In this document: positions 11,296 to 63,354 of the stretch, one piece after another
Layout: the number at the start of each line of letters is the position of its first letter
Position numbering within the stretch: position 1 is the first letter of the stretch
From: Tulasnella sp. 424
Taxonomy: Eukaryota > Basidiomycota > Agaricomycetes > Cantharellales > Tulasnellaceae
DNA length: 64,000 nt
Assembly: GCA_019633425.1 (NCBI GenBank)
Contig: WSUB01000104.1
Location: 1 to 64,000 of the forward strand
Direction: 5' to 3'
Notes under the pieces: generated by a model
Seen by the model: only the letters and a program-made list of their open reading frames with translations
Told to the model about the DNA's origin: nothing
Database searches by the model: none
Program-made: the position numbers and the translations under genes

Positions 11296-11298
11296 TGG

Positions 11299-22533: not shown

Positions 22534-22659
22534 TTAGGCGATGGTGCAGTAGCCGTTACCTCCGCCGGATCCACCCTCCTGGTCGACGATGACGACTTCC
22601 TCGGGCTTAGAGGTGGCCGAAGCGGAGGCGAAGGAAGTGAAGAAGGAGTAGGAGTCCAT
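22534..22659 (-). CDS. Pheromone-like precursor 1 (class I, CTIA)
   Basis: A 41-residue peptide starting MDSYSFFTSFASAS and ending EGGSGGGNGYCTIA. The terminal C-T-I-A is a CaaX box. In basidiomycete mating pheromones this box directs farnesylation of the Cys, removal of the last three residues and carboxymethylation before export. The small size, acidic middle (KPEEVVIVDQ) and Gly-rich tail fit that family, but the Glu-Arg or Glu-His cleavage pair of many agaricomycete precursors is missing. TATATAA is at 22766-22772 and AGAAAGGGA at 22848-22856. This is the outermost gene of the left arm and the mirror partner of 59706-59831. The two share the longer spacing (188-189 nt) between AGAAAGGGA and the start. 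Confidence 0.8.
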   Translation of the reverse strand: MDSYSFFTSFASASATSKPEEVVIVDQEGGSGGGNGYCTIA

Positions 22660-24255
22660 TTGTTGGGCAGAGTGGGTTTTGGGGTGAGAGTAGGAAGTGA
22701 GGTGTGGATGGGAGTGGAGACTTGGAACTGATGATGAGCCTCTCCAACCTCAGAGTTCGATCTCATTATATACCATGGACTGACAAAGTGTCCGACGTAG
22801 ACTGCAAGCCACGTAGGATTGCAGTCTGCCGGAGTTTCGAGGGCAAGAGAAAGGGAACTGGATGTTGACGACGCTTCACTCTTCTCGTCATCCCAATTTA
22901 GAAGCGGCCAAGGTGAATTTTGCGGGGCACAGGAATCGCGCGAGTAGATTGTTTTCGCGTTGGGATTGGACGAGATTGGAAGTCTTGGACCCTGACGCTT
23001 CACGCGTGCGCTGCCAGCGTCCTCGCCTCTTTCGAACCGGTTCCGGAGCCCCGCGAGACGAGATCTAGGCGACCCCTGCGTACGTATAAGCGCTAGATCA
23101 AAGAACCCCCAGATATGTCTAGCATGCGGAAAGTGGGTATAGCAGTGGCCAAGTGCCTTTCTCCACCCATGACGACCCCCACATAATCTATGATTGTGGT
23201 CTTCAACTATCTCCTCTGAATAGAGCTTTGCCTTGGAATGTGTCAGCTCAGATGATAGGGATCATTTTCCCGATCCGACTCTGAACGACCGGAACCTTGA
23301 AACAGTCACTAAGTGACAGAAAGGGAGGCCTAATAAAACGGGTGGCGGTCAGAAAAGGACCGACCTAAGAAAGTCGCTTGAGACCCAGGCCAATGACCGC
23401 CACTAGTTCGAATTTCTCCCCCTGACTGAGTTCGCCGAAAAGGGCACGACCACGAGGGCGTCGACCTAAACGATCCTGGATAGAAACGCAGTTGTCCATA
23501 AGCGGTTGTACACAAGCGGTTCTTGTACGCGAGGCGCAAGAAAGGACGTCAAACGGCTCTTGTATCAAGATAAAATCTTATGAAATCCCGATCGGTAAGA
23601 GGCAAAGTTGGGAGTATTCGGTCACTCCATTGGTCAGAAAAGTTTGCCGTCGGTAATCAAATCGACGCCATCATCCCTGTCCGGCAATCGTGCCTCGTGT
23701 CAATTCTATTATCACCACGGTCTCGCCTGCCTTCAGTCATAGAAGAAAGATATTGTTCATCCTCGATGCAAAGTCGCGCTTTCTTCTAAAAGCCACAAAC
23801 GGCTTTGGAGGGTTCCGACGCTTCCTGGAACCAACTCGCTGGAGAGATCGCAGGACAACGCCAAATGAACCCCTATCGCGTGTCGGATGGTCGAACTATT
23901 GCCCAAACAAGTTCTCTCGAGGATCAGAGCTGCTTCCGAACGGAGAGAGAGATCATGTCATGACTCTAGCTTCTAAGAGTGATGCCTCACGTCAGTGGGC
24001 ACATTGCCTCCGGAGTTGCTTGATATCGAAATTGATGACCTGATGCCGTTCATCACTCTCTCGAGCACTGATACTCACCTCGATGCCCACTTTCCATCAG
24101 TGATGTCAATGTTTCCGGAGTGTACTTGATGAGCAAGGTTCGGCATACGCGGCAGTGCGGAGCCACGTGGCGCGGAGTTAAGCGGACGGAAAGTCTGGGA
24201 GCCTTTTCCGTCACACTACATTTGCCTTAACCTGCACTCCTGGCTAGAGCAGCGA
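22660..24255. other. Non-coding flank of precursor 1
   Basis: Apart from the promoter of precursor 1, only short open frames are visible. The whole stretch is matched in inverted orientation by about 58430-59700. It contains one TGAGTTCGCCGA motif near 23425. Confidence 0.5.
22848..22856 (-). promoter_or_regulatory. Proximal AGAAAGGGA element of precursor 1
   Basis: One base different from the Ustilago pheromone response element ACAAAGGGA; 189 bp before the start codon. Confidence 0.45.
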
Positions 24256-24617
24256 ATGCTCACGTTTCAGCACTTTCTTCTCAAAGGTCAGGTATACTCC
24301 CTGTACCGCTTGTTTATCCGAGCTTCGCGAGGTCCGTACTTATTTCATCGCGATCGTCCAGTTTTTGAGATGGTGTACTATGTCGGCCTAACTGAGAGTT
24401 TGATTTGCAGGCATCCCTGATCCGGAAACGAGGAGAGAAACATTGGTGTGGATTAGAAGTGAGATTGAGCAACATCGGATGGAGACGGACGCAGTGAGTT
24501 TATGGACATCTTGCCCGAGGACAAACGTCGCTAACGGGAGAGAAGGAGAAGATCAAGTCTCTCGTAGGATACGGGAGGAGGGCGCTCAAGCAATATTTCC
24601 CTGGAGCTCTATCGTAA
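24256..24617 (+). CDS. LYR-motif protein, LYRM2-like (intact copy)
   Basis: Exons 24256-24331, 24411-24493 and 24546-24617 join to 77 codons (76 residues). The N-terminus MLTFQHFLLKGQVYSLYRLF contains the Leu-Tyr-Arg tripeptide at residues 16-18. It continues IRASRGIPDPETRRETLVWI, RSEIEQHRMETDAEKIK and LVGYGRRALKQYFPG. This matches the layout of LYRM2-type members of the mitochondrial complex I LYR family, small helical proteins of the matrix that work with acyl carrier protein in complex assembly. The exact partner here is not known. It is the only housekeeping-type gene in the array and runs opposite to its pheromone neighbours. The last acceptor (GAGAAG at 24540-24545) is weak, so exon 3 could start a few bases earlier. 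A decayed mirror copy lies at 58123-58428. Confidence 0.75.
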
Positions 24618-26307
24618 AATGAAGTCGACATGACCTGTAGGAATCTGCCTGCATTCAATTCGCTTCCTCAGTGTTGGGAGGAAGACTACGGATGGTCAGT
24701 GGTCTTTGGCCTCTCTCGGCTGTCTGATTGCTCGGCAGAGAGTACCTCTATACAGCTCATTCCTGACAGTACTCTGTGTGGGCATTCGAGTTGAACTTCC
24801 CGCCAATAGTGTTTGGAGAAAGACCACCGACGGTCTGTGGCCTGTGGCTAATGAGTGGACGAACATGGCCCGAGATCGCCAACTCGGATGCGGTCATTTG
24901 TACTACGGGCTTCGGGACCATTTTAAGCCGATGATGCCATTGTTCTGGCACTATTTCTGGACGGGGTCTCGATTTCTCGTGTTTGAGCCCGGTCCTCATG
25001 TTCTAACATCATTCTATAGTCAATCTACGACTCCTGATATATAGACTTAAGCCAGGCCGAGCCAGAAAAATCAAATCCACTTCAGTAGGGCAGGTCAGAA
25101 ATTCATTCAGTGTTAGCAATGATAGAGGGTGAACCGTTGCTCGTCGGCCCGGAAGACCTCCGGTTCGAGATGGATCGGGCTGTCTCCATTCGTTGTTACA
25201 CATATCGCGGACTTTCCTCTAAGCCCGAGGGTCTAATTTCGGTTTCGTTTCTGAAACTTATGCTCTGGTTGCCTTGGAGAAGGGGAAGCCTAAAACTTCG
25301 ACGAATGTTCCACAACGGGAGGCCCGAACGGGATTGGTGCTGGTAGTTCTCGAAGCTACCATATAAACAAGGATTAAACCGCATAAAATGGGCACAGAGA
25401 CGAATTACTCGTTGTCAGAACATATGAAGGGAGACTTATAAAGGGGAATGCGTACGAAAGGGAACAACCGTTTCAAGTTCGTGCCCTGGCCCTTCCCCGG
25501 AACCCCCATCTCTAACTTCGTACTAGCTTCGTTCTCGTCGGAATGGCTGAGCTCGCCGGTGTGGCTTTTGTTACGGGGGCGATGTCAGTAACAGATGCCT
25601 CATTAGCACCCCTCTGCGGTGCAAGGAACTGCCTGCTTGAGAGCGCCAGAGTCAGACTTACTCCCAAATCGGATCCTCCGATTATTTCTACAATGACTGA
25701 GAGGACTTGAAACACAAGGAGTAATTCGAAGCTTCTGAAGTATATGACAGGGAATTTGACCGTAGAAAAGGGTTGTTGGTTGACGAGTCAAAGTATTGCC
25801 GTCACGAACTAACCTATTGATCTTACTGTCCTGTAAAAGTGATGAGGACGACAGCCCAGCTATAGAGCAGGTTTTCGTCTGCGTTGGACGGGAGGCGTTG
25901 TGAGTCTAGCTGGGGGAGGGTGCGTCAGATTTGCAATTTTCGTCCACTCAGAACGATGTTCTACCGGGAGCCACACACGAGAAACTGAGTCGAGAAATCC
26001 ATGGATTCGCAGGACATACAGCGATATGTAGATAAAGACACATGAATGCGTGGACAGCGACTGGCTGATGATAGCTGAGCACGAGGGCCAAAAGCGTGCA
26101 CAAAAGGAGAAAGAAATAAAATGTAAAGGCAGGCACAATGTGAACGAAGAGGAGCGAAGTTGACGGGTAGGATGTAGGTTGGGAGCGTGTCGGATGGCTT
26201 GGTTGGTTATGGGACAGGAGTCAGGAGAGCATATCTTTGAGCACTGGAATCCGACAGTGGGGTCAATAACGCGGTTTGGAAAGAGCTAATGAATCATGAA
26301 CCGACCT
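24618..26307. other. Intergenic between LYRM2-like gene and precursor 2
   Basis: The open frame at 24706-25044 has no motif, and I do not call it. The part near 25940-26160 is the conserved 3' flank of class I genes. Precursor 2 has its 3'-UTR intron at 26244-26305. Confidence 0.45.
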
Positions 26308-26433
26308 TTAAGCGATAGTGCAGTAGCCGTTGCCTCCACCGGATCCGCCCTCTTGGTCGACGATGACGACCTCCTCGGGCTTAGAGGTGGCGGAAGTGGA
26401 GGCGAAGGAGGTGAAGCTGAAGTAAGAGTCCAT
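26308..26433 (-). CDS. Pheromone-like precursor 2 (class I, CTIA)
   Basis: 41 residues, MDSYFSFTSFASTSATSKPE then EVVIVDQEGGSGGGNGYCTI and A. TATATAA at 26537-26543, AGAAAGGGA at 26575-26583. Two bases after the stop an intron with GTCGGT..CAG is predicted at 26244-26305, in the 3'-UTR. It is the mirror partner of 57556-57681, and both are preceded by the conserved SEAEFAE small frame. Confidence 0.8.
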   Translation of the reverse strand: MDSYFSFTSFASTSATSKPEEVVIVDQEGGSGGGNGYCTIA

Positions 26434-26574
26434 TTGTTGGGTGGATTGGGTTTTGGATTGAGAAGAAGAAGAGAGATGTGGATGTGAGTGGAGGCTGCTG
26501 TTGATGGGCTTCATCGACCTCGCAATCCGAAGCTCGTTATATACCCATTCGCTGACATAGAGATTCAAGGTGAG

Positions 26575-26583
26575 AGAAAGGGA
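26575..26583 (-). promoter_or_regulatory. Proximal AGAAAGGGA element of precursor 2
   Basis: Lies 142 bp before the start codon and upstream of the TATA box. Confidence 0.45.
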
Positions 26584-26912
26584 AGGCTGTTTGATTACGC
26601 CTCCCTCCCGTTGGTTCCTCTCGTGGTAATCTAAATTTGGGTCAGGGTGGAACGGTCCTTTTTGGGCTCAAACGAGACTAGCCACGGATTGGTCTGGCCT
26701 TGAGTCCTTCGCATTCGCTCGGTTCACCAAACCTACCAGGAACACCAGAATAAGTATTTGATTACCTCCCAGTCATACGAGATTCATCCGTGCCTCGAGT
26801 GCTGACCGCCGGGCCGCCATCTCGCCCCAGCTATCCAGAGGTGATCCGAGTGGATGTTCCCATACTATTATCGAGTACTCGTAATCCACCCCGAGAACTA
26901 GGGTTTGAAATT

Positions 26913-27137
26913 TCAAGCAAGTGCCTCCAAACGATACGTGGAACCGGAAGTTGCTGCGGATTTCTTCGCAACCGACCTTTGTCTGACCTCAACCCGCAAC
27001 GCCACCATACTGGGAAGCTGCCGTGCCACATGTTGCCAGGACGCGTTCTCCCAAAGACTCGCGTCTAGACTGCCACATAAGCGCATAAAGGCTCGATGGA
27101 TCCTTTCGGCGAACTCAGCTTCTGATAAGGGATCCAT
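26913..27137 (-). CDS. Conserved small open frame upstream of class I gene (74 aa)
   Basis: Reads MDPLSEAEFAERIHRAF, then MRLCGSLDASLW, SWQHVARQLPSMVALR and SVAKKSAATSGS. The mirror copy at 56874-57091 differs by substitutions and by indels of whole codons only, which suggests coding constraint. Other class I upstream regions keep the first 30 residues but then have a stop or a frameshift. Function unknown; it may be an exon of a longer gene, or only a relic. Low certainty that it is expressed. Confidence 0.35.
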   Translation of the reverse strand: MDPLSEAEFAERIHRAFMRLCGSLDASLWENASWQHVARQLPSMVALRVEVRQRSVAKKSAATSGSTYRLEALA

Positions 27138-28148
27138 GAAATTCGTGCGGGGTAAAAAAAAAGGAGAATATTTTCAATTGAGTTGGACCATGCCCGATTC
27201 GGAATCGGCGGCGAACACAGCGTCAGCACGATTCAGGAGTCGAGGGATCAGAGAGTAAGCCCCGCGTCCCAAGAGGGAAGGCCCCTTCGGCTAGTAACAT
27301 GAGGCACCACGAGAAAAGTTAGGCAGGTTGTTGTGATGTCAGGTTGATTCCCGAACGGACTTAACGGTCGTAGAGACGAATCCCCGTCAGCGAACATCCC
27401 CTCCGAGTTCTTACCGGCTTTCGCATACCTCCTCAAGTTTGTAAGAATCGCAGAAGAGCACGAGGGCAGTAGGCGCTCAAGTTCCAGCCAACAGCGAAGT
27501 CCCTCAAGACCAATGTAGTACGGGGCCAAAGGGACCCTTGTCGGATCGCAGACGAATACCCGCGGAGGGTCTCTCAATACCAGAATCACGTCCGAATGGG
27601 GAGAGCGATCATGTCAGAACCATAGCCACCAAAATTGATACCTCAGGAGCTGTGGACCTGGCTCGGGATCGTAGCTGTTGGTCATTCTGTGGAGCCTGCT
27701 TAGGAACGAGAGACTTGCTACAGTGAATAACTCCCAGAACTTGAACTGATATGTACTCACCTCTACAAGATTTCGGTAGTGGCTCACAATCTCTCGCTGG
27801 AATCGATGAGAGGAGTTCAATGGAATCCTATGGCACCGTTCCATAGCGTTTGTATACGCATTCGGGTACATCACCGCATTGCGGAAGGAGGCGAACATCC
27901 ATCTATTCACAGGAGCCAGACCTCATAGAACAGAATGAAAACCGAAAACTGAGAAAAGGATAAGAACGAAAAAAAGAAGAAAGCGAAGTAGGAAAGTGAA
28001 GATAAGAACGAAGAGCCAGGATCGGATCGCGGGTGGGTCCGCGATTGCTCGTCGGGGCGAGCGTTTATGGTAGGTATGCCGCTGTAGAGGTTAGGCGGAG
28101 TGATTGGTATACGGCCTCTGCTATTATGTGCTAAAGAAAGGCTTACAT

Positions 28149-28268
28149 TTAAGCAATAGTGCAGTAGCCGTTACCTCCACCAGTTCCGTCGTCCTGGTTG
28201 ATGATGACGATTTCCTCGGGCTTGGAGGCGGTGGAAGCAGCGGAGGAGAGGGTGAAGTAAAAGTCCAT
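28149..28268 (-). CDS. Pheromone-like precursor 3 (class II, CTIA)
   Basis: Class II type: 39 residues, MDFYFTLSSAASTASKPEEI, VIINQDDGTG and GGNGYCTIA. Compared with class I, the N-terminus is MDFY instead of MDSY, and the region before the tail is INQDDGT instead of VDQEGGS, so the secreted peptide would probably differ. TATAAAAA is at 28375-28382 on the minus strand and an exact ACAAAGGGA at 28845-28853. Three bases after the start of TAA a GTAAGC donor opens a 65-nt intron (28082-28146) in the 3'-UTR. Mirror partner of 55741-55860. Confidence 0.8.
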   Translation of the reverse strand: MDFYFTLSSAASTASKPEEIVIINQDDGTGGGNGYCTIA

Positions 28269-30202
28269 TGTTAAGTGGAGATGGAGATGAGTGTAGAGCA
28301 GATGTGAGAGTGTAAGAGCGGAGGAGTGGATGTGAGGGCTGATGGAGAACGTCTTGGCCTCGAAAGCCGAGCACTTTTTATACCTTGGCGTCGCCCTTGG
28401 GCTCGATAGAAGCCTATACTAGTGACATCGAGTGCACCGGGTCGATTTGATCATCAGGAGCCACCAACAGCCAAACTCAAGTGATGCTAGAAGCATCTGG
28501 CACCGACAAAAATGGAAATTATTGAGGGGCATGACGTATTGAATTGACGGACTAGCGATGTTTGGATGCACTCGTTTGTACAGGAGACTGCAGTGCACCC
28601 TCAATTCAGTCGAGCCTTTTTGGCCAACGGTGGCATAGCTTCGGCGCCATTGTTAGGACGGGCCCCGATTGCCCGAGTGTGGACCTCGTCCCGAGGCTCG
28701 ACCTGTATTCACTAAGCATTCTACGGCTCCTTACAGCTGGGACTAGGTCCAACGGAGAGATCAGAGCTACTTCGGAGGTGGCGAGTCGGACATTTTCTGG
28801 GCCTGAGAGAGTCTCGCCACAGTCAGCCGCGAGCGCACACGTCAACAAAGGGAGGCCCAAATAGGCGGAAAGACTTTTTGCCGCCAGCTCTAAGAACTTG
28901 CTAGCGTTCAATGGATTGAAAGTACTTGTCACATATGAGAAGTCAGCGAAAACTGAAACGATAGATGCCAAATCGTTGTTCCTCAGCGCGGAGGACCTTC
29001 CCCTGCCCTCCGGCTCGAGATGGATGGGGTTGTCTCCATTCGTTATTCCACATATATCGCAAAACTTTACTTCAGCTCGAGTGTGTGTTTCCGATTCAGC
29101 TTCTGAAACTTATGCTCTGGTTGGGGTTGGAGAAAGGAAAGCCCACTACTTCGACAAATGAACCACAGCGGAAATGCCCGAATGGGATTAGTGATGGTGA
29201 TTCTCGAAGCTGCTTTGTGAAACAAGGCATCAATAGCGTGAAATGGAGATAGTGACCGAGGAGCTGCTTCATATCAGAACATGTTCAGGGAAGTCCTTAA
29301 ATGGGAATCCCTATGAAAGGGAACAAACGTTGCGTGCAGGAGAGCCGTGGACCGTCCCTCGGGCTGACACTTCTCAATTTTCACTAACCTCGATCTCCTT
29401 CGCATGTCTGAGTTCGCCGATGTGGCTTCGCGCTGGCGACTATGAGCCAATGCCTGACTCGGATCCTCTGATGAATTAGGGTCTGCTCACGTGGACAGTC
29501 ACACTCATTGTCGACTCGGATCCCTCAGATAGTACGTCAGTCATAACCGGAAGAACTTGAAACGTCAGGAGGATAGGAAGTTCTCGAAGCAGTTGACAGG
29601 GGATGTGATCTAAGGCAAGGGTAGCTGGGATGGAGGTTGTTAAGGGTATACGGAAGACCTGAACAGCTCCCCATGAGCCCTGGTCGTTCCAGGTGAAGGT
29701 GATGGGGATAATAACTCAGCCTATAGAGTGGATCTTCATCTTCGTCGAATGGAAGGCGGCGGGTCTAACGTTGAGAATTCGAAGGGTCTTCCGGACCTGC
29801 ACTTTTCGTCGGCCCGAAAAGCGACCATCTGCTTTTGAAAGGGTCACGTAGTCGAACTAATGTTCTTCCAGAAGTCACACATCGAAAGCTGGGTCTAAAA
29901 ATCCATGGATTCGCAGGAAATACAGCGATATGTAGATAAAGACACATGAATGTGTGGACAGCGACTAGCTGAATAGGAGGGCCAAAAGCATGCATGAACG
30001 AAAAAAGGAAATAAAATGTAAAGGCAGGCTCAATATGAACAGAAGAGAAACGAAGTTGACGGGTAGGATAGGGTTACGAGCGAGTCGCATGGTTTGATTG
30101 GTTATGGGGCAGGGGACTGAAGATAGTATCTTCGAGCGCTAGAATTCGACACCGAAGTCACTACCGCGGTCTCGGAAGGGTCATTTGATTAGGAACTGAC
30201 CT
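28269..30202. other. Promoter of precursor 3 and 3' flank of precursor 4
   Basis: The right-hand part of the class II upstream block contains TATGAGAAG-type repeats and one TGAGTTCGCCGA motif near 29410. The 3' flank of precursor 4 includes the class I conserved stretch ACAGCGATATGTAGATAAAG near 29920. The open frames here are not conserved and are not called. Confidence 0.5.
28845..28853 (-). promoter_or_regulatory. Pheromone response element of precursor 3
   Basis: ACAAAGGGA, identical to the element bound by the HMG-box regulator Prf1 in Ustilago maydis, on the coding strand, 577 bp upstream. The flanks (GTCAACAAAGGGAGGCCC) are conserved in the whole class. Confidence 0.6.
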
Positions 30203-30328
30203 TTAAGCAATAGTGCAGTAGCCGTTACCTCCGCCAGATCCGCCCTCTTGGTCGACGATGACGACCTCCTCGGGCTTAGAGGTGGCGGAAGAAGAGGCGA
30301 AGGAAGTAAAGCTGAAGTAGGAGTCCAT
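30203..30328 (-). CDS. Pheromone-like precursor 4 (class I, CTIA)
   Basis: 41 residues, MDSYFSFTSFASSSATSKPE and the class I tail. TATATAA at 30436-30442 and AGAAAGGGA at 30474-30482. In position it corresponds to 51586-51711 on the right arm. Its upstream region holds a SEAEFAD small frame near 30870-30960 with a stop after ASLW. Confidence 0.8.
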   Translation of the reverse strand: MDSYFSFTSFASSSATSKPEEVVIVDQEGGSGGGNGYCTIA

Positions 30329-31897
30329 TTTTAGGGGAGAGTGGGGTTTTGGATTGAGAGTAGGAATAGAAATGCGGATGGGAGTGAAGGCTGAGAGTGT
30401 TGATGAGCTTCATCGACCTCGCAATCCGAACCTAATTATATACCCATTTGCTGACAGAGAGCGTCGAGGTGACAGAAAGGGAGGGTTGTTTGACTACGCC
30501 TCCCTCCCGCTCTTGGCAATCTAGATTGGGGTAAGGGTAGTACGTTTACGCTCGAAAAAGACTAGCCACAGATAGGTCTGGCCCTGAGTCCTCAGTATTG
30601 ACGAATTTCACCAAACCGACCAGGAACACCATTCAAGATTCATCCATGTGTACACCGAACGCTGGCCGCCTGGCCATCATCCTCCCCCAGCTTGCCCAAT
30701 GTAATCTGAGTGGCTATTCCCCATACTATTGAGGACTCGTCTTCTACACCGGGCACTAGGATTCGAAGTGCCAAGATGGTATCTTCAAACGATAATTTGG
30801 ACTCGCTGCCGCGGATATCTTCGGGACCGAGCTGCAACGTCACCATACTTGATGGGCCACATGTTGGTAGGTCCGAGTTTTACCAGAGACTCGCATCCAG
30901 ACTGCCACATAAGCGTATAAAGGCTTGATGGATCCTGTCGGCGAACTCAGCTTCCGATAAGCGATCCCTGGATACATGAGGGGTAAAAATTTTAATTCGA
31001 GTTCGGCCCATACCCGATTCGGAATCGGCGGCGAAAAGCGCGATTCAGGTGCCGAGGGATCAGAGAAGGAGTGTCACGTCCAAAAATGGAAGGCCCCTGA
31101 GGCTAATCTCCATGCTCGGCAGGTTGTTGTAGTGTCAGTTGATTCATGAAAACGGACTTAACGGTCGTAGAGACGAATCCCCGTCAGCGATGGAGATCCT
31201 TTCCGAGCTCATGCCGGCGTTCGCATACTTCCCCAGGTTTGTAAGAATCGCAGAAGCGAGCCCAAGAGCGGTGAGCCCTCAAGATGTTCCAGCTAAGGTT
31301 AAAAGGGTTCAAGAGAAACGCAGTGTGGTGCCAGAGCGACTGCTGTCGGACAGCAGGACACAACAGCCAATTGGAAAGAGGGTCCCTCATTGTAGCTGTT
31401 CGTCATCCTGTGAAAACTGCCGGATTGACAGGACGGAATACCTGATGTCGTGAATTACTCCCATAACTGAGACTCACCTTGATGACCACCTTCCAGACTT
31501 GGGTGACGTCGATAACTGACGCTGGACTCGGTGAGAGGAGTCCAATGGAATTCTCTAATCCTCGAGGTCAATGTTGTTAGGGGGAAGACCGGAACATCAA
31601 GCCTCTCAGAGAATGCCGAGCTTGAAGGTGGTTCTAATGGCAATATTTCCGTAGAACACTGCTACAGATCAGAGATAGGTGTATGTCTTTGGAGACCATT
31701 TTTTCATTCGGACGGCAACACAAAGGTGGGGAGAAGCAGTCGCTTCAAGAGCCAAAGCCATCTCATTTAAATGACTCGCCGAAAGCCATTGGGCGTTCTT
31801 GGCCCTTCATCGTGAAGACCACAAGTGTATCACTCTCCCATCCGCAAGCACATGCTACAAGACAGCCGGTACTACCCAAGTCGGTTCTCGAATCGCG
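30329..31897. other. Intergenic between precursor 4 and Gag-Gag-DM9 copy E
   Basis: Apart from the promoter of precursor 4, the part from about 31190 is the 3' flank of copy E. It is matched in inverted orientation by 48915-49690 (for example the CTGTCGGACAGCAG palindrome near 31345 and near 49533). No gene seen. Confidence 0.5.
30474..30482 (-). promoter_or_regulatory. Proximal AGAAAGGGA element of precursor 4
   Basis: 146 bp before the start codon. Confidence 0.45.
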
Positions 31898-33291
31898 TCA
31901 CTCCACCCAAGCGAGCACTCGTATACTACTCCGTGTAACCTCCTTCCCGTAATAACTCGTCTGAGTGACTGGGGAGCCAGAGTGTACCTTTCCGGGGTGC
32001 CAGCTAGAGTCCGAAAGCTCGACTTGAGACACAAGCGTACAGATGTCCTTGTGGGCAGTCTCGAAGCCCGCCTCCACTGCCACGAACGGCAAGTGGATGA
32101 CAGCCTGGAGATCTTTCGACTCGCTTGGCACGGCGACCCAGTGAAAGTAGGATGGATCACCAACGAGGACCTTGAATGGGGTGATACCATAGATTTCCTT
32201 TCCCTTTAGCGCGAAGATAGTGCCTAGTATGGCATTGGTCGACAAGCATGAGATTGTGATATAAGCCAGTTGGGGCAGGAAGCTCTTACCGTGGAAGTGT
32301 CTCCCGCATTTTCCAACGACGAGCCCAGCGTCCTCGTACCACACGCGCGCACTGTAAAAGGGCTTTCCTTCTACGTTCGTCCCGGTCCGTATGGCATTCT
32401 CTGGAATCTCCTTTTCACTCTGCACTAAGAGCCAACAAGGAGCTGACGGGTTTTTAGCTTCCGTGTACCGCTTTTGATTTGCCCTGGCATGGTTTAACCA
32501 ATCCGTATGCGACCGAATCGATTGGAGCAATGGGGATGGCGGAACGGGAGAGAACCATTTGTTCACCCGGATGCGAGCCGGCGAGATCTCCGACAGCAGT
32601 ACGCGGGGATAGTCAAGCAGAATGGCCTTTTTGAGTCGAGTCCAATGAGCTCTGATGTCTTTGGGGAGTGATGTGTGCCATTTGAGGGCTTCCGCGTCGA
32701 AGCATGGGTACGCCAAACGAGCCATCCAGGCGGAGTCTCCTTCTCTGCCTTGGGCAAACGCCCGTATTCTGATTTGTCGGACGAAATGCTGACACTCGGC
32801 CTCGCTCTCTCCCTTAAAGACAGGAAGTGACAACGCCATCTCCAAGTCTGGTTTAACCCAGACGTTAATGCGAGGTACTCATTCTTTCGCACACAAGTAC
32901 TCACTCGGCGGCTTCCCAACTATATCCTCAGAAATATCGTCCGAATAGCGGGTCAGGATAACACGACGGAGTCGTCTCCAGTCCGTTTGCGTCTCATCGT
33001 CTAGACTCTCGAACCACCTCAAAGCATTGTCATTGAATCTAATGGACGCGTAGTCTGCCATCCACCTATTGTCAGTCTGCCTGTCTACTTCAAGTCCTTG
33101 TTTACGAATAGCACGAATAAACTGATGGCAAGTGAGCCCGTCAGTCCCGTTAAAGGCGATATCTCCTACATAAATTTCCCCAATCCAGACGCTGGTCAGT
33201 CGAACAGGTCTAGAAAATGAGAGAAAGACTAACCCGCGTTGTAATTCTCTTTGGGTTCCATTTGTCGATTGGTGCCGAGGTCGAGGTTCAT
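31898..33291 (-). CDS. Gag-Gag-DM9-DM9 protein, copy E (intact)
   Basis: Minus-strand exons 33234-33291, 32905-33165, 32290-32847 and 31898-32223 give 400 residues. Exon 1 (MNLDLGTNRQMEPKENYNAG) is unrelated to exon 1 of the left-edge copies. Residues about 20-106 form Gag-like domain 1 (DIAFNGTDGLTCHQF, NALRWFESLDDETQTDW, RVILTRYSDD). Residues about 108-187 form domain 2 (LPVFKGESEAECQHF, EALKWHTSLP, ILLDYPR). The DM9 part has NAIRTGTNVEGKPFYSARVW, then GLVVGKCGRHF, FKVLVGDPSYFHWVAVP and SSWHPGKVHSG, ending RVLAWVE. A continuous open frame exists through the last intron, but GTAAGAG..TACTAG borders and the sibling copies favour splicing. It lies directly downstream of precursor 5 in the same orientation; its inverted twin is at 47549-48914. 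Confidence 0.78.
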
Positions 33292-33818
33292 GTCGTGCAC
33301 GCAGGTCGTAAGCAGGGATCCCTCCGTCATGTTTCGCACGACACCCTGAAATAGTTCAAGACGGACCTCCAAGGCTTCAACGGCCCGAACACGAGCTTAA
33401 GTTCGTTGGTTAGATGGCTCAGGTTTCTTCACTTTGAGATGTGGAAAAGCGCGCCTTAGAGTCTGGCTCATCCAATGTTCCCCATCTACACCATTTATGT
33501 AAGGCCGTTTCTTAATGCTCGGGCATGCGCTCGGGTTATCACGACAGTGTGGAAGGAGTCTGACATCCGTCTATTCACATGAGCCAGGTTCATAAGACAC
33601 GATAAAAACCGAAAAGCGCGAAAACAATCGAAAAAAAACAACCAAGAAAAAGCGAAGTAAGAAAGGGAAGATAAGAACGAAGGGTTAAGACTGGTTTGCG
33701 GGCGGGGACCGCGATTGCTCGTCGGCGCGAGCGTTTAAAGCGAGTATGTCACTGTGAAGATCAGATGAAGTGATTAGTATACGGTCTCTGCTATTGCGAG
33801 CTGAGCAAAAGCTTACAT
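33292..33818. other. Between precursor 5 and copy E
   Basis: Holds the 3'-UTR intron and T-rich 3'-UTR of precursor 5 on the minus strand (A-rich on the plus strand, 33600-33690), then the upstream region of copy E. No other gene. Confidence 0.5.
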
Positions 33819-33938
33819 TTAGGCAATAGTGCAGTAACCATTTCCTCCACCGGTTCCGTCCTCCTGGTTGATGATGACGATTTCTTCGGGCTTGGATGCA
33901 GTGGAAGCAGCGGTGGAGAGGGTGAAGTAGAAGTCCAT
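33819..33938 (-). CDS. Pheromone-like precursor 5 (class II, CTIA)
   Basis: 39 residues, MDFYFTLSTAASTASKPEEI, then VIINQEDGTGGGNGYCTIA; Thr at residue 9 is unique in the class. The TATA box is altered to TATTTAAA (34045-34052), so expression may be weaker. ACAAAGGGA at 34511-34519. It is followed by Gag-Gag-DM9 copy E and is the mirror partner of 46863-46982. Confidence 0.8.
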   Translation of the reverse strand: MDFYFTLSTAASTASKPEEIVIINQEDGTGGGNGYCTIA

Positions 33939-34510
33939 TGTTAAGTGGAGATGGAGATGAGTGTAGAAGAGATGTGAGAGTGTAAAAGCGGAGGAGTGGA
34001 TGTGAGGGCTGATGGAGAACGTCCTGGCCTCGAGATCCGAGCACTTTAAATACCTTGGCATCGCCTTTGGGCTCCACAGAAGTCCATACTAGTGATATCG
34101 AGGGCAACGGGTCAAACCGATTACCAGGATCAACGAACGGTCAAACTGAAGTGACGCTAGAAGCATCTGGCGCCGACCAAATTGGAAATTATTGAGGGGA
34201 ATGACGCATTGAATTGGCTGACTAGTGTGATGTTTGGATGCCGTCGTTTGTATCGGGGAGGCGTCGAGACCGCACTGCACCCTTAATCTAGTCGAGCCTT
34301 TTTGGCCAACGGTGGCATGGCTTCGGCCCCATTTTTGGACCGAGCCCCATTGCCCGAGTGTGAACCTCGATCCTGAGGCTCGACGACCAAGTACTCTACG
34401 ATCAGGACTAGGTCCAGCGAAGAAACCAGAGCTACTTCGGGGGAGGCGAGTCGGACATTCTCTGAGCGATGGCTAGACCCGTCGACAGGAGTTCGCGTAC
34501 GCGTACGTCA

Positions 34511-34519
34511 ACAAAGGGA
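34511..34519 (-). promoter_or_regulatory. Pheromone response element of precursor 5
   Basis: Exact ACAAAGGGA on the coding strand, 573 bp upstream. Confidence 0.6.
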
Positions 34520-35157
34520 GGCCCCGAATAGGTGGAAAGATGTTTTACCGTCCCCAAAAGGACTGCGAATGAACCGGACGTTGTTCCCCCTGACTGAGTT
34601 CGCCGATTTTTACAAGTAGACTTGCTGTGGGGTAGGTCCCTACCTGTCTGGGGCATTTCTTTCCATCATCACTGCAACGGTCAAGTTCAGAATCACGATA
34701 AGGGACCCTTGTATCGAGATGAAATCGTGATGCAGGGGTACCAGACTGGTTTTACCAGAGACTCGCATCCAGACTGCCACATAAGCCTATAAAGGCTTGA
34801 TGGATCCTGTCGGCGAACTCAGCTTCCGATAAGCGATCCATGGATACGTGAAGGGCTAACAAAATGAGAATATTTTAATTTGAGTTTGGCCCATACCCGA
34901 TTCGGAATCGGCGGCGAAAAGTACGATTCGGGCGCCGAGGATCAGAGAAGGAGTGTCCAAAAGGGGAAGGCCCCTGAGGCTAGTCTCATGAGGCCATGAA
35001 AAAGTTAGGCAGGTTGTTGTGGTGTCGGCTTGATTCCCGGAAACGGACTTAACGGTCGTAGAGACGAATCCCCGTCAGCGCCGAGCTCTTGCCGCCCGTC
35101 GCTGTGACCTCTCCAGGTTTGTACGAATCGCAGAAGAGTGCCCAAGAGCGATGAATG

Positions 35158-36401: not shown

Positions 36402-36521
36402 TTAGGCAATAGTGCAGTAGCCGTTACCTCCACCGGTTCCGTCGTCCTGGTTGATGATGACGATTTCCTCGGGCTTGGAGGCAGTGGAAGCAGCGGAGGA
36501 GAGGGTGAAGTAGAAGTCCAT
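36402..36521 (-). CDS. Pheromone-like precursor 6 (class II, CTIA)
   Basis: 39 residues, identical in sequence to precursors 3 and 8. TATAAAAA at 36627-36634 and ACAAAGGGA at 37132-37140. GTAAGC donor three bases after TAA. First class II gene of the tandem core; the truncated Gag-Gag-DM9 copy F follows it. Confidence 0.82.
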   Translation of the reverse strand: MDFYFTLSSAASTASKPEEIVIINQDDGTGGGNGYCTIA

Positions 36522-38421: not shown

Positions 38422-38547
38422 TTAAGCGATAGTGCAGTAGCCGTTGCCTCCACCGGATCCGCCCTCCTGGTCGACGATGACGACCTCCTCGGGTTTAGAG
38501 GTCGCGGAAGAGGAGGCGAAGGAAGTGAAGCTGAAGTAGGAGTCCAT
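38422..38547 (-). CDS. Pheromone-like precursor 7 (class I, CTIA)
   Basis: 41 residues, same peptide sequence as precursor 4. TATATAA at 38656-38662 and AGAAAGGGA at 38694-38702. Sister of 42434-42559 in the next tandem unit. Confidence 0.82.
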   Translation of the reverse strand: MDSYFSFTSFASSSATSKPEEVVIVDQEGGSGGGNGYCTIA

Positions 38548-38693
38548 TTGTGAGGTAGAGTGGGTTTTTGGATTGAGAGTAGGAAGAGAGGTGTGGATGG
38601 GAGTAGAGGCTGAGAGCTGATGATGAGCTTAATCGACCTCGCAATCCGAACCTCGTTATATAGCCATTTGCTGACAGAGAGTGTCGAGGGGAT

Positions 38694-40436: not shown

Positions 40437-40556
40437 TTAGGCAATAGTGCAGTAGCCGTTACCTCCACCGGTTCCGTCGTCCTGGTTGATGATGACAATT
40501 TCCTCGGGCTTGGAGGCAGTGGAAGCAGCGGAGGAGAGGGTGAAGTAGAAGTCCAT
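40437..40556 (-). CDS. Pheromone-like precursor 8 (class II, CTIA)
   Basis: 39 residues, identical to precursor 6, its tandem sister. TATAAAAA at 40656-40663 and ACAAAGGGA at 41115-41123. The leader is six bases shorter than in precursor 6 (one TGGAGA repeat lost). Confidence 0.82.
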   Translation of the reverse strand: MDFYFTLSSAASTASKPEEIVIINQDDGTGGGNGYCTIA

Positions 40557-42433: not shown

Positions 42434-42559
42434 TTAAGCGATAGTGCAGTAGCCGTTGCCTCCGCCGGTTCCGCCCTCCTGGTCGACGATGACGACCTCC
42501 TCGGGCTTAGAGGTGGCGGAAGAGGAGGCGAAGGAAGTAAAGGTGAAGTAGGAGTCCAT
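42434..42559 (-). CDS. Pheromone-like precursor 9 (class I, CTIA)
   Basis: 41 residues, MDSYFTFTSFASSSATSKPE, and a tail with EGGTGGGNGYCTIA. The Thr instead of Ser before GGGNGYC is a class II feature in a class I gene. TATATAA at 42669-42675 and AGAAAGGGA at 42707-42715. Confidence 0.82.
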   Translation of the reverse strand: MDSYFTFTSFASSSATSKPEEVVIVDQEGGTGGGNGYCTIA

Positions 42560-44673: not shown

Positions 44674-44814
44674 ATGGACTACTACTACACTTTGTCTTCC
44701 TCCACTTCGGAGACCGCACCCTCGCCTAGGCCCGAGTCAGTAGTCATCGATATCGAGGTCGTTGACTTCGAGGGCGGCACCGGGGGAGGAAACGGCTACT
44801 GCGTCATTGCTTAA
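44674..44814 (+). CDS. Pheromone-like precursor 10 (divergent, CVIA)
   Basis: 46 residues, starting MDYYYTLSSSTSETAPSPRP, then ESVVIDIEVVDFEGG and the tail TGGGNGYCVIA. The CaaX box is C-V-I-A, the form most usual in basidiomycete pheromones. The body is five to seven residues longer than in the other genes and contains Pro-Arg-Pro. TATATAA is at 44539-44545. A GTGAGT..TTTGTAG intron follows just after the stop (44818-44880), as in all other members. No exact ACAAAGGGA was found close upstream. It stands alone at the centre of the palindrome and may be the oldest member. Confidence 0.78.
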   Translation: MDYYYTLSSSTSETAPSPRPESVVIDIEVVDFEGGTGGGNGYCVIA

Positions 44815-46862: not shown

Positions 46863-46982
46863 ATGGACTTCTACTTCACCCTCTCTTCCGCTGCTTCCGC
46901 TACCTCCAAGCCCGAGGAAGTCGTCATCATCAACCAGGAAGACGGAACCGCTGGAGGTAACGGCTACTGCACTATTGCTTAA
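46863..46982 (+). CDS. Pheromone-like precursor 11 (class II, CTIA)
   Basis: 39 residues, MDFYFTLSSAASATSKPEEV, then VIINQEDGTAGGNGYCTIA. It has Ala instead of the first Gly of the GGG run, and AT-SKPEEV as in class I. TATAAGAA at 46746-46753. GTAAGC donor after TAAAT. It is directly followed by the intact Gag-Gag-DM9 copy H. Mirror partner of precursor 5. Confidence 0.82.
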   Translation: MDFYFTLSSAASATSKPEEVVIINQEDGTAGGNGYCTIA

Positions 46983-48914: not shown

Positions 48915-49972
48915 TGCGATTCGGGAACCGCCTTGCATAGTACTGGCTATCTTGTAGCATGTGCTTGTGGATGGGAGGAGTGGGACACTTTTCCTCTTCA
49001 CGATCAAGAACGACTAATGACTTCGGCGAGTCATTTAAATGAGATGGCCTTGGCTGTTGAAGCAACTCCTTCTCGCCACTTCTGTGTTGCAGTCCGAACC
49101 GAAAAAAAGGTCTACAACACATACACCTATCTCAGGTCGGTAGCAGTGTTCCAGGGAGATATTGCCTTCAAGTTCCGTATTCTCTGAGAGGCTTGATCTT
49201 CCCGTCTTCCCCGCAACGGCATTTACCTCGAGGGTCAGAGAATTCCATTGGCTTCCACTCACCGAGTCCAACGTCAAGTATCAACGCCACCCAAGTCTGC
49301 AAAGTGGTCATTGAGGTGAGTCTCAGTTATGGGAGAAATTCACGACATCAAGTATTCCGTCCTATCAACTCGGCAGTTTCCACATGATGACCAACAGCTA
49401 CAATTCCCAGGCGAAGTCCGCAGTTTCTGAGGGACTAGTCGCTGTGGTTATAGTCGTGATATATTCCTCTTTCCTTCCGGGCACGATCATGGAGCTTGGG
49501 GGACCCTCTTTCCGATTGGCTGTTTTGTTCTGCTGTCCGACAGCAGTCGCTGTGGCACCACACTTCGTTCGGTTGAACCCTTTTAACCTTAGCTGGAACA
49601 TCCTGAGCGCTCACCACTCCTCGGCTCTCTTCTGCGATTCTTACAAACCTGGGGAAGTATGCGACAGAACGTTCGGGCATGGGCTCGGGTGATCACGACA
49701 GTGAGGAAGGTGTCTAACATCCGTCTATTCACATGAGTCAGGTTTCAGAAGGCATGATAAAAACCGAAAGGCGCGAAGTATTCGAACGAAAAAACCAAGG
49801 AAATGCGAAGTAATAACGGGAAGATAAGAACGAAGGGTTTTAAGACTGATTTGCGGGCGGGCCCGCGATGGTTCGTCGATGCGAGAGTTTAAGGCGAGTA
49901 TGCCACTTTAGGGATCAGATGAAGTGATTAATATACGGTCTCTGCTGTTACGAGCTGAGGAAACGCTTACTT
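48915..49972. other. 3' flank of copy H and of precursor 12
   Basis: 48915-49690 is the inverted partner of 31190-31897. 49700-49972 is the T-rich 3'-UTR region of minus-strand precursor 12. The open frames seen here are shadows of this repeat. Confidence 0.5.
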
Positions 49973-50092
49973 TTAAGCAATAGTGCAGTAGCCGTTACCT
50001 CCACCAGTTCCGTCTTCCTGGTTGATGATGACGACTTCCTCAGGCTTGGAGGTAGCGGAAGCAGCGGAAGAGAGGGTGAAGTAGAAGTCCAT
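49973..50092 (-). CDS. Pheromone-like precursor 12 (class II, CTIA; inverted)
   Basis: 39 residues, MDFYFTLSSAASATSKPEEV, then VIINQEDGTGGGNGYCTIA; closest to precursor 11. It is the only minus-strand gene in the right arm, so a local inversion or insertion has broken the symmetry here. TATAAAAA at 50197-50204 and ACAAAGGGA at 50676-50684. Confidence 0.82.
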   Translation of the reverse strand: MDFYFTLSSAASATSKPEEVVIINQEDGTGGGNGYCTIA

Positions 50093-51585: not shown

Positions 51586-51711
51586 ATGGACTCCTACTTC
51601 AGCTTGACTTCCTCCGTCTCCTCTTCCGCCACCTCTAAGCCCGAGGAGGTCGTCATCGTCGACCAGGAGGGCGGATCCGGTGGAGGCAACGGCTACTGCA
51701 CTATCGCTTAA
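51586..51711 (+). CDS. Pheromone-like precursor 13 (class I, CTIA)
   Basis: 41 residues, MDSYFSLTSSVSSSATSKPE and the class I tail. The N-terminus is the most changed of the class (LTSSVS instead of FTSFAS). TATATAA at 51472-51478. 3'-UTR intron 51714-51775 (GTCAGT..CTAG). Its upstream SEAEFAD small frame near 50938 has a stop after ASLW. It points away from precursor 12, and their promoters share the interval 50093-51585. Confidence 0.82.
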   Translation: MDSYFSLTSSVSSSATSKPEEVVIVDQEGGSGGGNGYCTIA

Positions 51712-53595: not shown

Positions 53596-53715
53596 ATGGA
53601 CTTCTACCTCACCCTCTCCTCCGCTGCTTCCACTGCCTCCAAGACCGAGGAAATTGTCATCATCAACCAGGACGACGGAACCGGTGGAGGTAACGGCTAC
53701 TGCACTATTGCTTAA
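53596..53715 (+). CDS. Pheromone-like precursor 14 (class II, CTIA)
   Basis: 39 residues, MDFYLTLSSAASTASKTEEI, then VIINQDDGTGGGNGYCTIA. KTEE instead of KPEE is shared only with precursors 15 and 18, so these three form a subgroup. TATAAAAA at 53491-53498. 3'-UTR intron 53718-53782 (GTAAGC..CTACAG) with a TACTAAT branch-point-like motif at about 53754. It has no mirror partner and is probably a local tandem copy of precursor 15. Confidence 0.83.
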   Translation: MDFYLTLSSAASTASKTEEIVIINQDDGTGGGNGYCTIA

Positions 53716-55426: not shown

Positions 55427-55680
55427 AGAGCCCAAAGGCGACGCCAAGGTATAAAAAGTGCTCGGCTTTTGAGGCCAAGACGTTCTCCATCAGCCCTCAC
55501 ATCNNNNNNNNNNNNNNNNNNNNNNNNNNNNNNNNNNNNNNNNNNNNNNNNNNNNNNNNNNNNNNNNNNNNNNNNNNNNNNNNNNNNNNNNNNNNNNNNN
55601 NNNAGAGCCCAAAGGCGACGCCAAGGTATAAAAAGTGCTCGGCTTTTGAGGCCAAGACGTTCTCCATCAGCCCTCACATC
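55427..55680. other. Assembly gap with identical 77-bp flanks
   Basis: The N run is 55504-55603 (100 N). 55427-55503 and 55604-55680 are identical, from AGAGCCCAAAGGCGACG to CAGCCCTCACATC, and include the TATA box. The homologous places at 53470-53540 and 63100-63170 have this sequence once. It is most likely an unmerged contig overlap. Confidence 0.8.
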
Positions 55681-55740: not shown

Positions 55741-55860
55741 ATGGACTTCTACTTCACCCTCTCCTCCGCTGCTTCCACTGCCTCCAAGACCGAGGAAATC
55801 GTCATCATCAACCAGGACGACGGAACCGGCGGAGGAAATGGCTACTGCACTATTGCTTAA
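55741..55860 (+). CDS. Pheromone-like precursor 15 (class II, CTIA)
   Basis: 39 residues, same peptide as precursor 18 (KTEE type). TATAAAAA at 55627-55634 after the gap, with another copy before it that is probably an assembly artefact. GTAAGC donor three bases after TAA. Mirror partner of precursor 3. Its response element is damaged. Confidence 0.83.
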   Translation: MDFYFTLSSAASTASKTEEIVIINQDDGTGGGNGYCTIA

Positions 55861-57555: not shown

Positions 57556-57681
57556 ATGGACTCCTACTTCAGCTTCGCCTCCTTTGCCTCCTCTTCCGCC
57601 ACCTCTAAGCCCGAGGAGGTCGTCATCGTCGACCAAGAGGGCGGATCCGGTGGAGGTAACGGCTACTGCACTATCGCTTAA
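57556..57681 (+). CDS. Pheromone-like precursor 16 (class I, CTIA)
   Basis: 41 residues, MDSYFSFASFASSSATSKPE and the class I tail. TATATAA at 57441-57447. The 3'-UTR intron starts GTCGGT at 57684 and probably ends TTTCAG at 57747. Mirror partner of precursor 2. Confidence 0.83.
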   Translation: MDSYFSFASFASSSATSKPEEVVIVDQEGGSGGGNGYCTIA

Positions 57682-59705: not shown

Positions 59706-59831
59706 ATGGATTCTTACTTCTCCTTCACTTCCTTCACCTCCACTTCCGCCACCTCTAAGCCCGAGGAGGTTGTCATCGTCGATCAGGAAGGCGGATCCGG
59801 TGGAGGTAACGGCTACTGCACTATCGCTTAA
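59706..59831 (+). CDS. Pheromone-like precursor 17 (class I, CTIA)
   Basis: 41 residues, MDSYFSFTSFTSTSATSKPE and the class I tail. TATATAA at 59593-59599. The 3'-UTR intron begins with a less usual donor (GTTCGT at 59834) and ends TTGCAG near 59900. Mirror partner of precursor 1, with which it shares 3' sequence up to about 59955. Confidence 0.83.
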   Translation: MDSYFSFTSFTSTSATSKPEEVVIVDQEGGSGGGNGYCTIA

Positions 59832-60897: not shown

Positions 60898-61999
60898 TGA
60901 ACCTCAACCCCGGCACCAATCGTCAAATGTACAAGCCATCCAAAGCGGATTGCGACGCGGATTAGGCTCTATATTATCCCCTAGACCTGTCCAACTGACC
61001 AACGCTGAATCGGGAAAATTTATGCAAGAGATGTCGCCTTTAACGGAACCGGCGAGCTCATATGCCATCAATTTATTTGTGCTATTTGGAAACACTGACA
61101 ATCGGCGTTTAGCAGACTACACATCTACTAGATTTGATGACAGCGCTTTGAGGTGATTCGAGAGTCTAGACCGACGAGCCGCAAAGGGACTGTAGACTCC
61201 TCCGTCGTGCGATCGTGGCCCGCTATCCGGACGATATTTCCGAGGATATATTGGTAAGTCTGCCCAGTGAATGCTTGTGTACAATAAGAATGAGGATCTC
61301 GCATTGGTTGGGGTTGAACCAGACTTGGAGGTGGCGTTGTCACTTCCTGGTTTTAAGGGAGAGAGTGAGGCCGAGTATCAGCATTTCGTCCGACAGGTCA
61401 TAATACGGGCGTTTGCCCAAGGTAGAGAAGGAGACTCCACCTGGATGGCTATATTGGCGTATCCATGCTTTGACGTGGAAGCCCTCAAGTGGCACACATC
61501 ACTCCATAAAGACATTAGAACTGATTGGCCTCGACTCGAACAGGCCATTTTTCTGGAATATCCCCGCATACCGTTGTCGGAGATCTCGCCGGCTCGTCAG
61601 CAAATGGTCTTCCTCCGTTCCGCCATCCCCATCCTCCAATCAATTCGGCCGTACACGGACTGGTTAAACCTCGCTAGGGCGTATCAAAAACGGTACACGG
61701 AGGCTAGAAGCCCGTCCTTTCCTTGTTGGCTCTTAGTGCAGAGTGAAAAGGATATTCCAGGGAATTCCATACAGACCGGAACGAATGCAGAAGGAAAGCC
61801 CCTTTTACAGTGCGCGCTTGTGGTACGAGGACGCTGGGCTCGTCGTTGGAAAATGCGGGAGACACTTCCATGATAAGAGTTTCCTCCTCCAAGAGGCGTA
61901 CTACCACATTCTCATGCCTGTCGACTAAGCTCATACTAGGTGCTGTCTTCATGCCGAAGGGAAAGGAAATCTAGGGGATCACCCCATTCGAGGTTCTCG
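60898..61999 (+). pseudogene. Gag-Gag-DM9 gene, decayed copy I
   Basis: Exon 1 still starts with ATG (MNLNPGTNRQM), but its donor is ATTAGG instead of GTTAGG. Exon 2 has lost about 27 bases and has TGA at the Trp of the ALRWFES motif. Exon 3 (about 61319-61870) reads LPGFKGESEAEYQHF, EALKWHTSLHKDIRTDW and PSFPCWLLVQ, but has a deletion before QQMVF and a frameshift in EGKPLLQ. The DM9 exon stops after TPFEVL near 61999, where class II upstream sequence begins. Confidence 0.7.
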
Positions 62000-63234
62000 T
62001 GAGACTAGCCTCAGGAGCCTTCCACTTTTGGACGTGACACTCCTCTGATGGCCACATCGGCGAACTCAGTCATGCGGGGGAGAATGGGGCTAGTGGGAAT
62101 TGGGAAGTTTCAGCCTGAGGGATAGTCCACGGCTCTCTTGAACGCAACGTTTGTTCCCTTTCATGGGCGTTCCCTTAATGGCTTCCCTGAACATGTTCTG
62201 ATATGAAACAGCTCATCTGTTTCTATGCCAATTCCAGCTATTAATACCCTATTTTACAGAGTAGCTTCGAGAACCACCATTATTAATCCCGTTCGGACAT
62301 TCCCGCTGTGGCACATGTGTCGACGTATTGGGCTTCCCTTTCTCCAACCCAACGAGAACATAAGTTTCAGAATCTGAATCGGATGCACACCCTCAAGTTG
62401 AGATGAAGTTTTAGATATGTGGAATGACGAATGGAGACAACCCTATCCATCTCGAACCGGAGGGGAGGGGAAGGTCTTCCGCGCCGGAACAACGACGATT
62501 CGGCATCCATCATATCAGCATTCCGCTGACTTACCTCTCATATGTGGAAGGAACTTTAAATCCATTGAACGCTGACAAGTGGGTTTTGGGACTTGGCCCT
62601 TGTGGCAAAAAAAATCTTTCCACCTATTCGGGCCTCCCTTTGTTGACTTACGTGCTCGCGAGCCCGCCTCCCATCGAATGGTATCTGTGGCGAGACTCTT
62701 TCAGGCTCAGAGAATGTCCGACTCACCGCCCCCGAAGTAGCTCTGGCTTCTTCGCCGGACCTAGTCCCAGTTGTTAGGAGCCGTAGAGCGCTCCGTGAAT
62801 CCGGGTAGGTTCACGCTCGGGCAATCGGGACCCGTTCTAAAAATAGGGCCGAAGCTATGCCACCGTTGGCCAAAAAGGCTCGACTGGATTGAGGGTGCAC
62901 TGCAGTTTCGACCCTTCTCCTATCCAGACGACTGCATCGAAGCATCAATAGTCCGTTAATTCAATACGTCATGCCCCTCAATAATTTCCTATTTTGTCGG
63001 TGCCAGATGCTTCTAGCATCCCTTGAATTTGGCTATTGGTTGCTCTTGGTAAGCCGTCGGACCCATTGCCCTTGATATCACTAGTATAGGCTTCTGTAGA
63101 GCCCAAAGGCGACGCCAAGGTATAAAAAGTGCTCGGCTTTTGAGGCCAAGACGTTCTCCATCAGCCCTCACATCCACTCCTCCGCTCTTACACTCTCACA
63201 TCTCCTCTACACTCATCTCAAACTCCACTTAACA
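62000..63234. other. Class II upstream block of precursor 18
   Basis: It closely resembles 52430-53595 and 54390-55740, so the right end of the window has at least three tandem class II upstream blocks. TGAGTTCGCCGA-type motif near 62057. No separate gene. Confidence 0.5.
62635..62643 (+). promoter_or_regulatory. Pheromone response element of precursor 18
   Basis: TCCCTTTGT on the plus strand, 592 bp upstream. Confidence 0.6.
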
Positions 63235-63354
63235 ATGGACTTCTACTTCACTCTCTCCTCCGCTGCTTCCACTGCCTCCAAGACCGAGGAAATCGTCATC
63301 ATCAACCAGGATGACGGAACAGGTGGAGGAAATGGCTACTGCACTATTGCTTAA
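63235..63354 (+). CDS. Pheromone-like precursor 18 (class II, CTIA)
   Basis: 39 residues, same peptide as precursor 15. TATAAAAA at 63121-63128. TAAAG GTAAGC donor after the stop and an acceptor CTACAG near 63421. It lies outside the palindrome; its downstream region to the window end (63430-64000) matches the region after precursor 15, so the array probably continues beyond the window. Confidence 0.83.
   Translation: MDFYFTLSSAASTASKTEEIVIINQDDGTGGGNGYCTIA

Follow-up and report, generated by a model that had tools for sequence, protein, structure and literature searches.

Pheromone-like peptide precursors encoded away from receptor genes have been described or are expected in a range of Agaricomycetes (PMC8305134, PMC4101180, PMC3140503, PMC10949477, PMC5755439, PMC11433599, PMC8686365, PMC12387193, PMC3564976, PMC8970355, PMC8161036, PMC12409109, and PMC5871698), and Coprinopsis, Laccaria, Agaricus, and Pycnoporus are among the genera with published non-mating genes of this kind. 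The literature searched assigns no role to the pheromone-like peptides encoded off the mating loci. The Agaricus pheromone-like genes have an intron in the 3' untranslated region (3'UTR), an MDS/AF start, and glycine-rich mature peptides (PMC8305134). Here we describe an array of 22 genes for short peptide precursors with CaaX-type C-termini on contig C7 of the fungus Tulasnella sp. 424, 18 of which lie in the 64,000-nucleotide stretch analyzed (the window, C7:1-64000). The assembly comprises 46.8 Mb in 448 contigs, and C7 is 148,395 bp long.

The array precursors have in common with those of Agaricus and Pycnoporus an MD start, a glycine-rich mature part ending in YC, a CaaX box, and likeness among the copies of one genome. 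Precursor lengths are 44 to 54 amino acids (aa) in Agaricus, 39 to 65 aa in Pycnoporus, and 39 to 46 aa in the array (PMC8305134, PMC4101180). The 3'UTR intron is known from expressed sequence tags in Agaricus, whereas that of the array is predicted from the DNA. Unlike the Agaricus and Pycnoporus non-mating precursors, those of the array have the box CTIA and lack the published dipeptide at the usual distance. The counts also differ: Agaricus has four precursors (three non-mating-like) and Pycnoporus seven (four), whereas the 22 genes here lie in one inverted array. With the B mating-type (pheromone/receptor, P/R) precursors the array shares a short CaaX precursor and the MD start, but it differs from those pheromones in its near-uniform tails and in lying on a 148-kb contig without a receptor; the gene on contig C257 beside STE3, described below, fits the B mating type. 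Pheromone-like genes away from receptors are thus not new; what is unusual here is how many there are and their inverted-repeat structure. The literature searched yielded no array as large and no paper on Tulasnella pheromone genes, although larger sets may be in print.

A 22-gene array under purifying selection

An earlier note, made from the window alone, had claimed 18 open reading frames (ORFs), and all 18 are present at 22534-63354 on both strands, eight of 41 aa, nine of 39 aa, and one of 46 aa. Our initial length filter listed 17 of them, and the one at 46863 was recovered by a further scan. As a copy number the claim was too small. Four further copies lie past the window (C7:65054, 66825, 69649, and 71439, all on the plus strand), and the total on C7 is 22 genes within 49 kb (22534-71564). 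The window contains two runs of N (11378-11475 and 55504-55603), the second of which interrupts the array and leaves the precise number of copies at that point uncertain. The copies in the window are as follows.

22534..22659, minus strand: 41-aa precursor, tail GGSGGGNGYCTIA
26308..26433, minus strand: 41-aa precursor, tail GGSGGGNGYCTIA
28149..28268, minus strand: 39-aa precursor, tail DGTGGGNGYCTIA
30203..30328, minus strand: 41-aa precursor, tail GGSGGGNGYCTIA
33819..33938, minus strand: 39-aa precursor, tail DGTGGGNGYCTIA; the only one of the 22 copies without the TATA pattern
36402..36521, minus strand: 39-aa precursor, tail DGTGGGNGYCTIA
38422..38547, minus strand: 41-aa precursor, tail GGSGGGNGYCTIA
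40437..40556, minus strand: 39-aa precursor, tail DGTGGGNGYCTIA
42434..42559, minus strand: 41-aa precursor, tail GGTGGGNGYCTIA
44674..44814, plus strand: 46-aa divergent precursor, tail GGTGGGNGYCVIA; no long flank match to other units
46863..46982, plus strand: 39-aa precursor, tail DGTAGGNGYCTIA
49973..50092, minus strand: 39-aa precursor, tail DGTGGGNGYCTIA
51586..51711, plus strand: 41-aa precursor, tail GGSGGGNGYCTIA
53596..53715, plus strand: 39-aa precursor, tail DGTGGGNGYCTIA
55741..55860, plus strand: 39-aa precursor, tail DGTGGGNGYCTIA; starts 138 bases past the run of N
57556..57681, plus strand: 41-aa precursor, tail GGSGGGNGYCTIA
59706..59831, plus strand: 41-aa precursor, tail GGSGGGNGYCTIA
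63235..63354, plus strand: 39-aa precursor, tail DGTGGGNGYCTIA

A search of the genome for extra copies, which the earlier note had proposed, added two single dispersed relatives, giving 24 genes of this class.

C390:117383-117505: single dispersed relative, from the genome search
C392:88230-88355: single dispersed relative, from the genome search

The degenerate tail pattern G-[YF]-C-box-A-stop has 26 matches in the 46.8 Mb, 24 of which are genes of this class, and a control with the pattern read backwards gave 0 matches; chance is therefore excluded for the array ORFs. The two other matches fall outside the class: that on C1 ends in TGG and has no stop, and that on C394 has no CaaX ORF of 25 to 100 aa with an MD or ME start in 3 kb.

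The precursors share a layout: after the start (MDSY or MDFY) come a leader that varies between copies, acidic residues placed 8 to 12 residues before the cysteine, a core rich in glycine (GGSGGGNGYC or DGTGGGNGYC), and the box. Eleven of the 22 copies start with MDSY (41 aa) and nine with MDFY (39 aa), and the remaining two start with MDYY (46 aa) and MEFY (41 aa). Six kinds of 13-residue tail occur, with GGSGGGNGYCTIA in 10 copies, DGTGGGNGYCTIA in 8, and the four others in one copy each. The tail given in the earlier note, GYC followed by two aliphatic residues and alanine, stands as a CaaX-type box; its first aliphatic position does not, since threonine is not aliphatic and 17 of the 18 window copies have CTIA (the other has CVIA). 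A box with threonine after the cysteine has been termed CpaX (PMC8970355). Across the array CTIA occurs 21 times and CVIA once, and all 22 are short precursors with a CaaX-type box that is strictly CpaX in 21.

A TATA pattern lies 105 to 135 bp upstream in 21 of the 22 copies, as TATATAA or TATAAAA and once each as TATAAGA and TATAAAT. In a simple pattern search over 260 bp, the copies had no HMG-type word (ACAAAG and others) in common apart from ACAAT, which sits at the start codon itself. The stop codon is followed by GT after 2 bases in 21 copies and after 5 bases in one, with HAG 60 to 67 nucleotides farther on in all 22. The donor is strict (GTAAG, GTGAG, or GTRNG[TC]) in nine copies and laxer in the rest, for example GTCAGT or GTTCGT. 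An intron just 3' of the stop codon is possible in all 22.

The copies are under purifying selection, which is strongest over the last 15 codons. All 22 reading frames are intact, and the mean pairwise ratio of nonsynonymous to synonymous divergence (dN/dS) over the whole gene is 0.134 for the 11 MDS copies (55 pairs) and 0.159 for the 9 MDF copies (36 pairs). The ratio is 0.244 (MDS) and 0.282 (MDF) in the leader, and 0.013 (MDS; bootstrap, 0 to 0.060) and 0.063 (MDF; bootstrap, 0 to 0.201) in the last 15 codons. Since dS is 0.2 to 0.3, most copies are not recent. Under a neutral simulation, the probability that all copies stay intact is 1e-4 to 2e-9 for the 11 MDS copies and 8e-4 to 1e-7 for the 9 MDF copies; the simulation used substitutions only, independent copies, and an assumed divergence of 0.07 to 0.15, and shared ancestry weakens its figure but not the dN/dS result.

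Array architecture, receptors, and relatives

Self-comparison of C7:1-94000 revealed that the left block of the array (22168-29426) is inverted relative to 62051-70136, in pieces of 82 to 89% identity that include 22.2-24.0 kb versus 70.1-68.3 kb (85%) and 25.96-29.43 kb versus 65.5-62.05 kb (82.5%). Two further blocks are inverted, 31389-34750 relative to 46021-49404 (86%) and 28.9-31.2 kb relative to 52.97-50.7 kb (80%), and a direct tandem duplication repeats 37045-39260 at 41025-43272 (91%). Comparison of the units gave the opposite-arm copies 22534/69649, 26308/65054, 28149/63235, 30203/51586, and 33819/46863 as best partners; the closest pairs, 36402/40437 and 38422/42434, are later tandem pairs. 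The inverted blocks and the unit partners agree, and they indicate that the array arose as an inverted duplication, now old and degenerate, which later grew in tandem and was rearranged. The mirror symmetry extends past the peptide genes, since an ORF family outside the array lies on the plus strand to the left (20.5-21.8 kb) and on the minus strand to the right (72.7-86.7 kb), with no Pfam match in the scanned members.

Other features surround the peptide genes. Repeated ORF families occupy 9805-15958 and 20496-21795 on the plus strand and C7:72731-86663 on the minus strand, their scanned members being without a Pfam match. The spacers contain another family, with a single ORF (31901-32878) passing the DM9 cut-off, and these spacer ORFs are probably passengers.

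31901..33355, minus strand, and again 47933-48805, plus strand: spacer ORFs that weakly match gag-like and DM9-repeat families

These ORFs belong to a family of related ORFs, some of them with weak matches to retrotransposon gag or to the DM9 repeat, that recurs within and beside the array (99-6364, 31901-33355, 47933-48911, and 61271-61870). The ORFs at 7189-8850 have no Pfam match; on visual inspection they resemble a secreted protein whose C-terminus is hydrophobic and Ser/Thr-rich.

The earlier note had seen no receptor in the window and had proposed a search of the rest of the genome for STE3. A whole-genome family search gave 15 exon matches, grouped into five genes, and found no STE3 exon on the 148 kb of C7. 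All 15 candidates of the first look were scored, and the five genes lie on C399, C391, C47 (two genes), and C257. The C399 and C391 receptors agree at 131 of 133 residues in the last exon and share six DNA blocks of 84 to 98% identity, so these regions are either a duplication or two haplotypes in the assembly of a dikaryon. The similar regions are near the contig starts (C391:1-8348 and C399:248-8577). In a quick receptor tree, the Tulasnella sp. 424 proteins P0001, P0002, P0078, and P0079 fell into one clade with those of other Tulasnella; the tree contained no labelled non-mating receptors and therefore cannot sort mating from non-mating ones.

In the 10- to 20-kb stretches scanned, only one receptor has a CaaX ORF as a neighbor. 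On C257, about 0.5 kb from the STE3 matches at 42169-43365, lies a 36-aa ORF (43902-44012) that ends in YTYYCVIV and, at 24.4 bits, exceeds the cut-off of the Pfam pheromone family. No CaaX ORF was found beside the other four receptor genes within the 10 to 20 kb examined. A loose rescan for ORFs of 25 to 80 aa with an MD or ME start (10 kb each on C391 and C399, 20 kb each on C47 and C257) gave two ORFs. Both are on C257; one is the pheromone-like gene already described, and the other, which ends in CIWT, was judged to be a chance match. A second CaaX array at C14:38950-47860 contains five genes with a spacing of about 2.2 kb that end in RYTYYCTIA; it is of another class than the C7 array, its peptides being related to the one encoded next to the receptor on C257, and another such gene is at C257:88152.

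A protein search with one 41-aa peptide gave no match, and a search with the 22-row alignment gave four metagenome proteins; neither returned a named Tulasnella protein. By eye, P0094 resembles the MDF class (core GGTGGQGYC), P0095 the gene on C392, and P0096 the 46-aa gene (core GGGGGNGYC in both), and P0097 (AGSGGGNGYCVIA) is a weak match with an E value of 0.31. Judged by these resemblances, the matches suggest that three precursor classes predate this genome with a similar core kept.

Function of the array and competing explanations

We see about an even chance that the genes encode precursors of farnesylated, non-mating pheromone-like peptides, a near-uniform self signal read by an STE3 receptor encoded elsewhere in the genome and multiplied for dose. 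The cysteine would be farnesylated, the last three residues removed, and the cysteine methylated; the genome contains one match to a candidate CaaX methyltransferase (ICMT) exon and 10 matches to candidate exons of prenyltransferase beta-type domains, on C398, C223, and C394. Cleavage at the near acidic residues would release a peptide of about 9 to 12 residues, and cleavage at the upstream EE one of 17; the peptide would be exported as other basidiomycete lipopeptide pheromones are. It would serve in hyphal self-sensing, fusion, or growth and not as a mating-type determinant, with the array supplying dose and perhaps allowing the 41-aa and 39-aa classes to be regulated separately. The reader may be a receptor of the Brl type. 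Mushroom STE3-like receptors without a mating role continue to be termed orphans, and the orphan Brl receptors of Schizophyllum commune, which have no neighboring pheromone genes, are proposed to sense self signals (PMC8161036); four of the five STE3 genes here likewise have no CaaX ORF beside them in the 10 to 20 kb scanned. In keeping with the non-mating class, the array lies away from receptors and its copies are alike within the genome. The earlier note is borne out in part. Its reading of pheromone-like CaaX precursors without a neighboring receptor is supported, with five STE3 genes in the genome and none found on C7. Its suggestion of dosage amplification is compatible with the near-uniform C-termini (two 13-residue tails account for 18 of the 22 copies) and is not proven by them.

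Several observations weigh against this interpretation. Agaricus precursors have a charged dipeptide (ER, DR, EH, NH, EE, or DE) and mature peptides of 11 to 13 residues (PMC8305134), and none of the 22 copies has a listed dipeptide at that distance. In the nine MDFY copies 8 residues separate DD or ED from the cysteine, and in the MDSY copies 9 residues separate a single E from it; in 21 of the 22 copies EE, the sole listed pair in the array, is separated from the cysteine by 16 residues. This argues either that the array is no plain family match or that the cut differs. In the C392 relative, DE and EE stand at 10 and 9 residues, which is the usual processing distance. Three representatives of the array scored 11.6 bits, no match, and 14.2 bits with Pfam PF08015, for which the cut-off is 22, and the genome search with the Pfam pheromone family did not list C7; that search gave a weak match of 17.6 bits on C425. 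The PF08015 cut-off does miss some precursors, one from Flammulina having been accepted at an E value of 0.45 (PMC3140503). Likeness to the Coprinopsis and Laccaria consensus strings reaches 4 to 6 of 10 positions, as do 36 to 100% of composition-matched shuffles; being no better than composition gives, it is kept as a resemblance only. The non-mating status itself is drawn from the absence of a neighboring receptor, on C7 only, and from little peptide diversity.

A rival reading is a mating-type pheromone battery, in which the array would be one multiplied specificity and C7 would be in linkage with a mating locus of the pheromone/receptor type. The assembly has 448 contigs and C7 spans 148 kb, so linkage past its ends is possible, and a receptor-peptide pair does exist in this genome, where the 36-aa ORF beside STE3 on C257 exceeds the Pfam cut-off. 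However, that receptor-adjacent peptide is of another class (YTYYCVIV), no receptor was found on C7, and the C-termini are near-uniform in the genome and similar in the metagenome relatives, whereas mating pheromones are expected to diversify; we regard the battery as unlikely. Equally doubtful are prenylated peptides with no STE3 role, anchored in the membrane or at the surface or aimed at another organism such as a plant partner. The missing published dipeptide and the excess of 22 genes over 5 receptor genes, none of them near, would suit such peptides, but their length, MD start, glycine-rich YC tail, CaaX box, and possible post-stop intron fit described pheromone-like precursors, and nothing observed indicates a host target. 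Non-coding or decaying repeats that keep an ORF by chance, which the earlier note had named as what would overturn its reading, are highly improbable. The genes do sit in repeated DNA with gag-like ORFs, yet the dN/dS values (0.134/0.159 overall and 0.013/0.063 in the last 15 codons) refute non-coding repeats as a full account. All 22 frames are intact, and the neutral simulation makes so many intact MDS and MDF copies unlikely.

Tulasnella species are orchid mycorrhizal fungi. A further, tentative possibility is a fungal peptide-dosage locus with the build of an ampliconic palindrome. Its lipopeptide would be a common signal, to self or to a plant partner, and not a mating signal; its output would be set by copy number, and it would act on one or more orphan STE3 receptors or on a target outside the fungus. 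For the self signal that we propose, the 22 near-uniform copies and the five receptor genes form a small, testable ligand-receptor matrix. The copy number here seems to be kept by selection, and genes of 39 to 46 codons show how such peptides escape annotation.

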